This document shows positions 51,934-54,770 of a stretch of 64,000 bases of DNA, piece after piece. How positions within the stretch are numbered: position 1 is the first letter of the stretch; every line of letters starts with the position of its first letter. This stretch comes from Rhodobacter sp. (GTDB lineage Bacteria; Pseudomonadota; Alphaproteobacteria; Rhodobacterales; Rhodobacteraceae), in NCBI GenBank assembly GCA_027484145.1, contig JAIXUH010000026.1, forward strand, positions 372,001 to 436,000. The letters run 5' to 3'. The notes beneath the pieces were generated by a model, which was given only the letters and a program-made list of their open reading frames with translations, did not search any database and was not told where the DNA came from. The translations under genes and the position numbers were made by a program.

Positions 51934-52329
51934 TTACGACCCTGCACCAGTTCCGCCGCCACCGGTTGTGGGAGCCGGTGCTGCCGCAGCAGGCTTGCGG
52001 GTTTTCACGCCGCCGACGCCCAAGCCCACATCAAAGCCACGGGTCCCGAAATCATATCCCAAATCAACGCCCAGATAGGCGTTGCTGCCAAGATAGGCCA
52101 AACCCACGCTGGGGCGCAGGCGCTGTGATTGGAACATATAGTCAAGGCCAAGCGTGCCGACCGTTTTCTTGCGCGCATTGTCCGAAAAGACCCGCAGACC
52201 GATGCCGGTTTCCACCTTGGACGCGCCGCCAAAGGTAAAGGTCAGGCCAAGTCCGATGGTCGGGTCAGCCGAGGCAGGCGTTGACAGTGCCAAGGCCACT
52301 GAAAAGACAGCCAAAAAACGGTGTTTCAT
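51934..52329 (-). CDS. Small outer-membrane-like protein
   Basis: 131 aa. Signal peptide from ATG 52329 (MKHRFLAVFSVALALSTPASA), preceded by GGAGCTTGTG. The mature part alternates glycine-rich strands (TIGLGLTFTFGG, GVDLGYDFGTRGFDVGLGVGG), the look of a small beta-barrel, and ends in an Ala/Pro/Gly tail (AAAAPAPTTGGGGTGAGS). It lacks a long enough set of strands for a porin; role unknown. Confidence 0.75.
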   Translation of the reverse strand: MKHRFLAVFSVALALSTPASADPTIGLGLTFTFGGASKVETGIGLRVFSDNARKKTVGTLGLDYMFQSQRLRPSVGLAYLGSNAYLGVDLGYDFGTRGFDVGLGVGGVKTRKPAAAAPAPTTGGGGTGAGS

Positions 52330-52501
52330 CACAAGCTCCAGTCCAAAATACATCCGGACTTTAACCATCGGCCGTCCTTCCGGCAACGGTTGTGATGTTT
52401 CGCGTGTGCGCATGGCGCTGCACATCCAAACTGGGTTAGGTGGTGGCCACAAATCTGCCCAACTCGGCTGGCATCCCATCCGAAAGGTGATCGGAGGTCC
52501 T

Positions 52502-53290
52502 ATGCGTTTGTTGCGTGCACTTGCTTTGTGTCTGCTGGCAGGTCCGGTGATGGCACAGGATGCCGGGTTGCGGTCGCTTCAGACCGGCGATGACAGCCGG
52601 GGGTGGGAGGCCGTGGGCCGCCTGAACCTGGGTGAACGGGGCTTTTGCACGGGTGCGCTGATTGCGGATGATCTGGTGCTGACGGCCGCGCATTGCTTGT
52701 TCGACAAACAGACGGGCGCACGGGTGGACCCAGCGACGATCGAGTTTCTGGCGGGTTGGCGCAATGGTCGCGCGGCAGCCTATCGTGGCGTGAAAAAGGC
52801 GCTGGCGCACCCGGAATATGTGTATGGCGGGCACGAAAACGTGGATCGCGTGGCCTTTGACGTGGCGCTGTTGCAGCTTGACCAGCCCATTCGTCTGCCC
52901 TCGATCCAGCCCTATGCCACCGATGACCGGCCCATCAAGGGTGATGAGGTGGGCGTGGTCTCCTATGCGCAGGACCGGTCGGAAGCGCCGTCGCTGCAAC
53001 AGGTCTGCCATGTGCTGGGTCAGCAATCGGATATGCTGATCCTGTCGTGCGACGTGGATTTCGGGTCTTCCGGCGCGCCGATCTTTTCGGTGAAGGATGG
53101 GGTGGCGCGCGTGGTGTCCGTGGTGTCGGCCAAGGCGGAAATGGGTGGGCAAAAGGTGGCACTGGGCACTCCCCTTGCCGAACCCGTGGCGCTGTTGCGT
53201 GCGCAAATGGCCGAAGGCGGGTCAAGCTTTCGGCCCGGAAATGTTCGGGTGTTGTCTGGCGGATCAGGCGGCACGTTCATCAAACCTTGA
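52502..53290 (+). CDS. Secreted trypsin-like serine protease, copy 1
   Basis: 262 aa. Signal peptide (MRLLRALALCLLAGPVMAQ). Catalytic triad: His in VLTAAHCLFD, Asp in FDVALLQLDQ, Ser in DFGSSGAPIF; the active-site loop reads GSSGAP instead of GDSGGP, common in bacterial relatives. Cysteines in FCTGALI and AAHC form the usual disulfide. ATG 52502. Tandem paralogue follows. Confidence 0.9.
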   Translation: MRLLRALALCLLAGPVMAQDAGLRSLQTGDDSRGWEAVGRLNLGERGFCTGALIADDLVLTAAHCLFDKQTGARVDPATIEFLAGWRNGRAAAYRGVKKALAHPEYVYGGHENVDRVAFDVALLQLDQPIRLPSIQPYATDDRPIKGDEVGVVSYAQDRSEAPSLQQVCHVLGQQSDMLILSCDVDFGSSGAPIFSVKDGVARVVSVVSAKAEMGGQKVALGTPLAEPVALLRAQMAEGGSSFRPGNVRVLSGGSGGTFIKP

Positions 53291-53301
53291 TGGGGGCACC
53301 C

Positions 53302-54129
53302 ATGAAATCAGCAGTTCTGATGGCCTTTCTTGCCCTTTTGTCCACCCCAGCCGCGATGGCGCAGAATTCCGGGTTAGAGCGGTTGGACCGCGCGGAACAG
53401 ATCTTGAGCTGGAAGGCCGTGGGCCGGGTCGAAATTGGGACAACGGGCTTTTGCACCGGCACGCTGATTGCGCCCGACCTTGTGCTGACGGCGGCGCATT
53501 GCCTGTATGACGAGGCGGGAAATGCCCATCCGCTGGAGAAGTTCCTGTTCCGGGCCGGTTTGGCGGATGGTGAGTCGATTGCCGACGCCAAGGTGACGCG
53601 GGCCGCCGCCCATGAAGATTACAGGCCGGGCAACAAGCTGTCGGCCGACAAGGTGCGCCATGATGTGGCCTTGTTGCAGCTGGCGACCGCCATTCCTTCT
53701 GCTTTGGCGCCGCCCTTTGCGGTCGACCGTCCCGGCAACGGCGATACCGTCAGCGTAGTGTCTTATGCCCAAGGGCGGGCCGAAGCCTTGTCATGGCAGC
53801 GCGCCTGCACCGTGCTGGGCAAGCAGGACGGGCTGATCGCGGTCGATTGCGATGTCACCTTTGGCGCGTCAGGGGCGCCGGTCTTTGACCGCAGCCAAGG
53901 GCGGGCGCGGATTGTCTCGATCATCTCGGCAGGCGGGGAATCTGCCGATGGAACCGTGGCTTACGGAATGGAACTGCCGCGCCTTGTGTCCGACCTGAAG
54001 GCGCAGTTCCGCGCCGGACGCGGCGTGATGGGGGCCGAGGCAAAGCCGGGCGCCAAGATCCGCCGCATCACCGTGGGGTCGGGCGAACGGGCCGGTGGCG
54101 CGCGGTTTGTCAAAGCGCCGGGCAACTGA
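53302..54129 (+). CDS. Secreted trypsin-like serine protease, copy 2
   Basis: 275 aa. Signal peptide from ATG 53302 (MKSAVLMAFLALLSTPAAMAQ). Triad: VLTAAHCLYD, HDVALLQLAT, and TFGASGAPVF. It shares with copy 1 the framework SWKAVGRVEIG and YAQGRAEALSWQRACTVLG, so it is a tandem duplication. A GGGGG site six bases upstream decides the start; ATG 53290 is the alternative. Confidence 0.9.
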   Translation: MKSAVLMAFLALLSTPAAMAQNSGLERLDRAEQILSWKAVGRVEIGTTGFCTGTLIAPDLVLTAAHCLYDEAGNAHPLEKFLFRAGLADGESIADAKVTRAAAHEDYRPGNKLSADKVRHDVALLQLATAIPSALAPPFAVDRPGNGDTVSVVSYAQGRAEALSWQRACTVLGKQDGLIAVDCDVTFGASGAPVFDRSQGRARIVSIISAGGESADGTVAYGMELPRLVSDLKAQFRAGRGVMGAEAKPGAKIRRITVGSGERAGGARFVKAPGN

Positions 54130-54181: not shown

Positions 54182-54210
54182 CTTGAAGATTGCGCATGGC
54201 CTTCCCAAAT
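54182..54210 (+). promoter_or_regulatory. Candidate RpoH (sigma32) promoter of hsp20
   Basis: CTTGAA (54182-54187), 16-base spacer, CCCAAAT (54204-54210). The -35 matches the alphaproteobacterial RpoH box exactly; the -10 partly. Located 96 bases before the hsp20 start, ahead of the thermometer-like leader. Confidence 0.5.
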
Positions 54211-54218
54211 CTGGCTTA

Positions 54219-54305
54219 TCCGGGTGCCACAACGGGCCCGGACAACCCAAAGCCGCCCCGCAAGGGGGGCTAATGACAGCATCGCTTCCCAAGGAGGATG
54301 ACCCT
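54219..54305 (+). promoter_or_regulatory. ROSE-type RNA thermometer candidate in the hsp20 leader
   Basis: Two upstream hairpins: TCCGGG/CCCGGA (54219-54242) and GCC-CCCC/GGGG-GGC (54252-54270). The third carries TCGCT (54282-54286), the UYGCU motif of ROSE elements, opposite the AGGA (54295-54298) of the ribosome-binding site AAGGAGGA, with one unpaired G and a CCAA loop. This pairing hides the site; heating would open it. Known for alphaproteobacterial small heat-shock genes. Inferred by eye. Confidence 0.65.
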
Positions 54306-54770
54306 ATGCGTACCTTTGATCTTGCACCGCTGTATCGTGCAACCGTGGGCTTTGACCGTATCGCCGATCTGATGGACCGGGCCTTGGCCTCGGACATCAC
54401 CCAGCCGACCTATCCGCCCTATAACATTGAAAAGACGGCTGATGATGCCTATCGCATCTCGATCGCCGTGGCCGGTTTCAGTCCCGAAGAACTGGCTGTC
54501 GAAGTCAAGGATGGTGCGTTGCATGTGGCCGCGCGCAAAGCGCCTGAGGCTGCCGAGCGGACCTATCTGCACCGTGGCATTGCCACCCGCGCCTTTGACC
54601 GCCGCTTTGCACTGGCCGATCATGTCCGCGTGACCGGTGCCGTGCACGAGCATGGCATGCTGCACATCGACCTTGTCCGCGAAACCCCCGAGGCGCTGAA
54701 GCCCCGCCGGATCGAGATTGGCCGCCCGTCTGACGTGCAGGCCCGCGTGCTGGAAACCGTCGAAGTCTGA
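54306..54770 (+). CDS. Hsp20 family small heat-shock protein (IbpA-like)
   Basis: 154 aa alpha-crystallin domain chaperone: YPPYNIEKTADDAYRISIAV, AGFSPEELAVEVKDGALHV, AFDRRFALADHVRVTGAVHEHG and GMLHIDLVRETPE. The usual I-x-I tail motif is RIEI. ATG 54306 is seven bases after AAGGAGGA. Prevents protein aggregation. Its 3' end plus terminator is duplicated 774 bases downstream. Confidence 0.94.
   Translation: MRTFDLAPLYRATVGFDRIADLMDRALASDITQPTYPPYNIEKTADDAYRISIAVAGFSPEELAVEVKDGALHVAARKAPEAAERTYLHRGIATRAFDRRFALADHVRVTGAVHEHGMLHIDLVRETPEALKPRRIEIGRPSDVQARVLETVEV

Follow-up and report, generated by a model that had tools for sequence, protein, structure and literature searches.

In the excerpts of the published accounts on which we draw here, ROSE elements are a classical kind of thermometer that precedes small heat-shock genes and is built of two to four hairpins; more than 40 are known from alpha- and gammaproteobacteria (PMC4166951). 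Their mark is given as a U-Y-GCU motif with a bulged G opposite the Shine-Dalgarno (SD) sequence (PMC3669281, PMC9450479). A further excerpt, which concerns the family to which our locus belongs, reports that ROSE-like motifs have been predicted ahead of ibpA and hspD in the roseobacter Nautella sp. R11 (Rhodobacteraceae; PMC3230580).

We followed up a first-pass annotation of a 64,000-nucleotide stretch of Rhodobacter sp. DNA (hereafter the window), which had placed a ROSE-type thermometer in front of an hsp20 gene. We conclude that the leader at positions 54219-54305 is very probably a ROSE-type RNA thermometer controlling hsp20, and as such it is a new example of an already known thermometer type, an ordinary element with an interesting structural detail. 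This reading draws on sequence and comparison, namely on promoter-like elements, three hairpins, a predicted closed SD, covariation and association with hsp20, and from it we infer a transcript start, melting of the leader by heat and translational induction. In the mechanism that we propose, heat would drive transcription of hsp20 from a sigma-32-type promoter. As long as the temperature is normal, hairpin III would pair the U-Y-GCU motif with the SD, leaving one G bulged, and would keep the 30S ribosomal subunit off. Warming would open this weak bulged helix, leading to the production of Hsp20, and the GC-rich hairpins I and II would stay closed during warming.

Gene, promoter and predicted hairpins

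The 87-nt leader precedes an ATG at 54306, which opens a gene for a small heat-shock protein of 154 aa (hsp20, 54306-54770, forward strand; Pfam PF00011 (HSP20), 65.9 bits against a cut-off of 20.8). By sequence, an SD, GGAGGA, lies at 54293-54298 on the forward strand, with 7 nt to the ATG. Upstream of the leader, also on the forward strand, we recognized an RpoH (sigma-32)-like promoter at 54182-54210 from the sequence and from homologous leaders; it consists of CTTGAA (54182-54187) and CCCAAAT (54204-54210), judged against the sigma-32 consensus. The transcript probably starts near 54217-54219. A trypsin-like protease gene (PF13365, 62 bits) sits directly upstream of hsp20 at 53302-54129 of the window, and a protease homologue was present in the flanking sequence that we examined, of up to 1.5 kb, at 93 of the 106 nonredundant hsp20 loci described below, the pair often being syntenic. 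Judging from their translations, the open reading frames at 52154-53290 and 53047-54129 resemble tandem copies of a secreted trypsin-like protease.

The candidate RpoH promoter had been part of the first-pass annotation, and it recurs among homologues: by permissive patterns applied without a shuffle control, the upstream CTTG was present in 102 of 104 homologous leaders and was accompanied by a -10-like element in 94 of the 104 (two of the 106 leaders, L036 and L066, were left out because their upstream sequence was too short). Given these promoter-like elements in most leaders, the idea that heat may act at both transcription and translation is a reasonable one. The same elements also suit an explanation that we consider improbable, in which the leader is conserved for reasons other than heat sensing: the 5' hairpins would protect the mRNA, the SD hairpin would tune translation without sensing heat, and sigma-32 alone would regulate the gene. 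In keeping with this alternative, hairpin I may prevent degradation of the Pseudomonas ibpA mRNA, according to the excerpted account of that thermometer (PMC3669281).

To return to the thermometer reading, the minimum-energy fold of 54200-54330 (RNAfold, 37°C) contains a ROSE-like hairpin III and two GC-rich hairpins, all on the forward strand. Hairpin I (54219-54242) pairs CCGGGU-G226-CC with GG-GCCCGG around a loop at 54229-54233, with G226 bulged; it is defined by the fold, in which one inner pair is open, and by comparison of the 106 leaders. Hairpin II (54251-54271), likewise defined by the fold and by leader comparison, pairs AGCC-G255-CCCC with GGGG-GGCU around a GCAA loop (54260-54263), with G255 bulged. 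Hairpin III (54280-54300) is the ROSE core, supported by the fold, by the Rfam ROSE alignment and by 104 of the 106 leaders; it pairs CAUC-G284-CUUC with GGAGGAUG around a CCAA loop (54289-54292) and closes the SD. Within it, AUC-G-CUUC (54281-54288, G284 bulged) is paired with the SD-holding GGAGGAU (54293-54299). The pairing first proposed here, of UCGCU (54282-54286) with AGGA (54295-54298) around a bulged G and a CCAA loop, was exact in its coordinates and reappeared in the minimum-energy fold, and so did the two strong hairpins that had been placed ahead of it.

The three predicted hairpins fall within the two to four of described ROSE elements. Hairpin III ends at 54300, before the ATG at 54306, so that the rhizobial ROSE1-type arrangement, with the start codon inside the last helix, was not found in this leader. 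One competing fold of the window leader pairs GCA with the UGC of the start; these bases are not conserved among the 42 leaders that we aligned. The folding energy of 54200-54330 is ordinary (z -0.26), and single-sequence stability is thus no proof of a functional structure. It also accords with the rival idea of an artefact of chance or composition, whereby a GC-rich leader contains a purine SD that could pair with any pyrimidine stretch, and comparison across homologues is what decides against this idea.

Conservation and predicted closure of the SD

Our set of homologous leaders was assembled from the 30 best matches, the window leader included, together with the best 80 of 533 relatives, and removal of four duplicates (L033, L035, L040 and L071) left 106. 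The motif T[CT]GCT[TC] occurred within the 45 nt ending with the start codon in all 106 leaders (own included), and in local folds a bulged G together with a fully paired GGA of the SD was found in 104 of them. The first-pass annotation had called the UYGCU motif and its SD pairing typical of ROSE elements, and the two recur in all or nearly all of the set. A leader that merely tunes translation does not account well for this pattern, since the motif with its bulged G opposite the SD is the mark by which ROSE elements are known in the excerpts cited (PMC3669281, PMC9450479).

We aligned 42 of the 106 leaders for covariation and model building. Unprompted, RNAalifold returned three hairpins from this alignment, in which hairpins II and III each had their G left unpaired with paired positions on either side, and the structure that we then scored (three hairpins, 22 pairs) was fixed partly after this result. 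Paired cells made up 92.4% of the alignment at these pairs, compared to 88.3% when shuffled, and fell to at most 63.7% when the 3' partners were slid. Both-sided change occurred at 10 pairs versus 5.0 in shuffles and in 51 cells versus 17.9 (0 of 500 shuffles as high in either case), and there were 23 further pair types versus 18.8 (3 of 500 as high), although, the leaders being related, the shuffle counts are not probabilities. The signal was spread unevenly, in that both-sided change was seen at 5 of the 7 pairs of hairpin II, and hairpin III was nearly invariant, with its both-sided change coming from a single pair (C-G in 18 leaders, U-G in 16 and U-A in 8).

We also predicted how far the SD is closed at different temperatures. 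For the window leader with its untranslated region (UTR) alone, the SD was unpaired with a probability of 0.03 at 25°C and 0.07 at 42°C, and the ROSE pairs had a probability of 0.83 at 25°C. With eight lengths of coding sequence added, competing pairings of the SD lowered the ROSE-pair probability to 0.00-0.45, and it is largely through these that the SD stayed closed (unpaired 0.03-0.16 at 25°C). Folding at 25 and 42°C had been suggested as a check, with an SD left unpaired in the cool as the outcome that would speak against a thermometer; by prediction, this outcome was not seen and the SD is closed at low temperature. Closure of this kind is not exceptional for a single sequence, so that the single-leader shuffles are uninformative, and this lends the composition artefact some support: over 54219-54336, 13% of 300 shuffles closed the SD at least as well as the window leader, and 21% showed as great a rise from 25 to 42°C.

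Across the 106 leaders, the picture was more distinctive. With the UTR only, the median unpaired probability of the SD was 0.02 at 25°C and 0.07 at 42°C, and shuffled leaders (20 shuffles each) had a median of 0.38 at 25°C; SD exposure at that temperature was under the mean of the 20 shuffles in 105 of 106 leaders. The ROSE pairs exceeded a probability of 0.5 at 25°C in 100 of the 106 leaders with the UTR only and in 70 when 30 nt of coding sequence were included. The longer sequences had median unpaired values of 0.08 (25°C) and 0.17 (42°C), and in 11 of 106 the SD was more open than closed at 25°C.

Heat-dependent opening of the SD in the window leader is thus only weakly predicted, and the small opening between 25 and 42°C in the energy models is a point in favor of a conserved leader that does not sense heat. 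Standard energy tables omit the non-canonical pairs of ROSE elements. Therefore, we would take the small predicted rise as a limit of the energy model that neither supports nor refutes sensing.

Covariance models and the reach of the family

The window leader can be aligned to all 94 positions (1-94) of the curated Rfam ROSE model (RF00435), but it scores 17.8 bits (E 3.2), where the cut-off is 45, and a scan of the whole window with Rfam at cut-off did not list the leader. As a positive control, we searched seven plasmid hsp20 leaders of Hyphomicrobiales (rhizobia), of which five passed (59.4-78.9 bits) and the others scored 43.5 and 28.8. Given that the window leader falls below the cut-off and positive controls pass, it lies outside the curated Rfam family. 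The low Rfam score is a further point for a composition artefact. Elsewhere in the window, the sole Rfam match above its cut-off was the ffh sRNA (RF01793) at 2280-2331, with 58.8 bits.

The first-pass annotation had also proposed a covariance search with the Rfam ROSE families, naming the lack of a match in close homologues as counterevidence, and the outcome was divided. Matches at E≤1 were found in 29 of 100 family genomes (30 matches, all spanning model positions 1-94), and each of the seven that we checked, five by coordinates and two by tblastn, lay directly before hsp20. Against this, none of the 100 genomes had a match above the cut-off, and our own genome was among the 71 without one at E≤1; in the scan that included the plasmid controls, neither the 3.5-kb locus of the window leader (L003) nor that of Paracoccus denitrificans (L190) was listed even at E≤10. 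A search of 240 genomes of the class with stricter filters gave 14 matches at E≤0.01 (L151-L164), none above the cut-off; 12 of them were upstream of hsp20, and the two others (L159 and L164) had no hsp20 beside them. Where checked, RF00435 matches in the Rhodobacteraceae thus indicate the same place, the hsp20 leader, and the curated model may be narrowly rhizobial.

We built our own covariance model, R1, from the 42 aligned leaders. The window leader was among the training sequences, and its score of 70.9 bits (E 3e-10) in its own genome is therefore not independent. The next match in that genome, with an E of 0.159, was the best of six weaker ones (E 0.16 to 8.5); lacking an adjoining hsp20, these were taken as chance rather than as thermometers. 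We judged three further R1 matches in other parts of the window, all with an E of 0.3 or more, in the same way. Over the 240 class genomes, R1 gave 40 matches at E≤0.01, which came from 38 genomes, while 202 genomes had no such match, and four places (G174, G276, G309 and G337) were common to R1 and RF00435. Our own match aside, all 39 class matches adjoin the start of an hsp20 homologue (29 and 5 fetched loci, 2 through their overlap with Rfam loci L153 and L154, and 3 by coordinates), which places these leaders, with transcript starts by prediction, in the untranslated sequence ahead of small heat-shock genes. The conservation across 106 leaders, the covariation in 42 and this 39 of 39 association refute the composition artefact by comparison, and we attach next to no probability to it.

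Among eight named plasmid leaders, R1 found three. It scored 40.3 bits on the Paracoccus denitrificans leader, 21.5 bits (E 0.016) on the Hsp20 leader of Agrobacterium fabrum pAt, where the Rfam ROSE score is 69.2 bits, and 19.6 bits (E 0.038) on the Nitrobacter hamburgensis leader. Of the seven rhizobial plasmid leaders, two were matched at E<0.05 and two at an E near 1, below a 14.9-bit chance match in the window, and three (L192, L193 and L197) were missed. Recovery of the pAt and Nitrobacter leaders, which Rfam calls ROSE, argues against a conserved leader without a sensing role. Taken together, the conservation among homologues, the covariation and the R1 matches at hsp20 indicate that the ROSE-type reading is the best one, although the leader is outside the Rfam cut-off.

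A weak match to the fluoride riboswitch family (RF01734; 15.5 bits) covers 54371-54458 and could suggest that the stretch holds this or another Rfam RNA, but it is internal to the coding sequence of hsp20, its score is well short of the required 34 bits, and its E is 3.5 in a larger search. We rejected this candidate and hold such an RNA to be extremely improbable. The ROSE-type leaders described here provide comparative support for such thermometers in a large bacterial group in which RF00435 passes its cut-off in 0 of 100 genomes, and the 106 leaders are material for a better ROSE covariance model.

Bulged guanines and comparison with known thermometers

A bulged G occurs once in the 5' arm of all three hairpins, and in hairpins I and II this is a feature beyond the first-pass annotation. 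In hairpin I, the register with the bulged G gave at least 7 of 8 pairs in 102 of 106 leaders, and the register without it did so in 4; exchanging the 3' arms among leaders lowered the mean from 7.82 pairs to 6.84 (200 trials, maximum 7.04). Hairpin II formed an unbroken stem with a bulged G in 99 of the 106 leaders, while shuffled middles did so in a mean of 5.5 and a maximum of 14 (20 rounds), and a different base could be bulged there in some leaders (C in 7, U in 2 and A in 2). Plain minimum-energy folds contained the bulged G in 88 (hairpin I) and 95 (hairpin II) of the 106. We also weighed whether hairpin II might serve as a decoy for the SD and set this idea aside, because in the window leader the 3' arm of that hairpin consists of successive Gs.

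The hairpin II bulge can also be formed in more distant leaders. Among 26 leaders from other alphaproteobacterial families (27 found by R1, minus L133, which has no U-Y-GCU by the pattern used), it was formable in 21, where R1 had been trained on leaders having it and where an uninterrupted stem of 7 bp was an alternative for 9 of the 26. Among leaders that RF00435 alone had detected, 5 of 8 could form it, as could 1 of the 7 rhizobial plasmid leaders. We found no description of a bulged G in the middle ROSE hairpin in the abstracts and excerpts searched, and novelty is not claimed.

It is conceivable, though on balance we lean the other way, that the leader is more than a sensor held up by two inert hairpins, and that all three hairpins are versions of the same module, in which a helix carries one bulged G in its 5' arm. 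Should the bulged Gs of hairpins I and II matter, the upstream hairpins could join the heat response, by packing cooperatively or by sharing a binding partner; the well-studied rhizobial ROSE would then be derived, having lost one bulged G. What the 5' hairpins of ROSE elements do is, according to the excerpt available, not fully understood (PMC3669281), and the conserved bulged G of hairpins I and II offers one nucleotide per hairpin with which to probe it.

The genome also contains a second hsp20 paralogue (L002, contig C32, about 1310-1385) with a short ROSE-like leader, AUGUC-G-CUUU UGC AAAGGACAU, which also has a hairpin I-like element and is preceded by a CCATATT -10-like element. When 20 stretches of 351 nt around the starts of this paralogue group were inspected, GTCGCTT was seen in 18, and a bulge was flagged in 10 of 18 isolated local folds, two of them with other partners.

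Among described systems, the ROSE-like motifs of Nautella sp. R11 share with the window leader the family Rhodobacteraceae and an association with small heat-shock genes; the excerpt gives them a one-sentence report, and the comparison is one of description, without sequence or structure (PMC3230580). The short ROSE-like ibpA thermometers of Pseudomonas resemble the window leader in having a short SD hairpin with U(U/C)GCU, a start codon predicted to be unpaired and a GC-rich hairpin I, although, as far as the excerpt describes them, they are gammaproteobacterial and have two hairpins where the window leader has three (PMC3669281). The leader of paralogue L002 is closer than the window leader to this two-hairpin layout. 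In the Pseudomonas aeruginosa ibpA element, deletions of one nucleotide that stabilize the structure are reported to lock the switch closed (PMC3669281), and loss of G284 would be expected to act likewise. From the founding ROSE1, excerpted as having four hairpins (PMC9450479), the window leader differs in having three. The last helix of the RF00435 consensus continues past the AUG, whereas the short hairpin III of the window leader leaves the start codon outside, and the bulged G of the middle hairpin sets the window leader apart from all but one of the seven rhizobial plasmid leaders. Nevertheless, the window leader is like the rhizobial hspA-type ROSE (RF00435; for example, that of Agrobacterium pAt) in being an hsp20 leader with U-Y-GCU opposite the SD, a bulged G and an end-to-end alignment to the model, and the unpaired G before CC in hairpin I is alike in the window leader and the Rfam RF00435 consensus.
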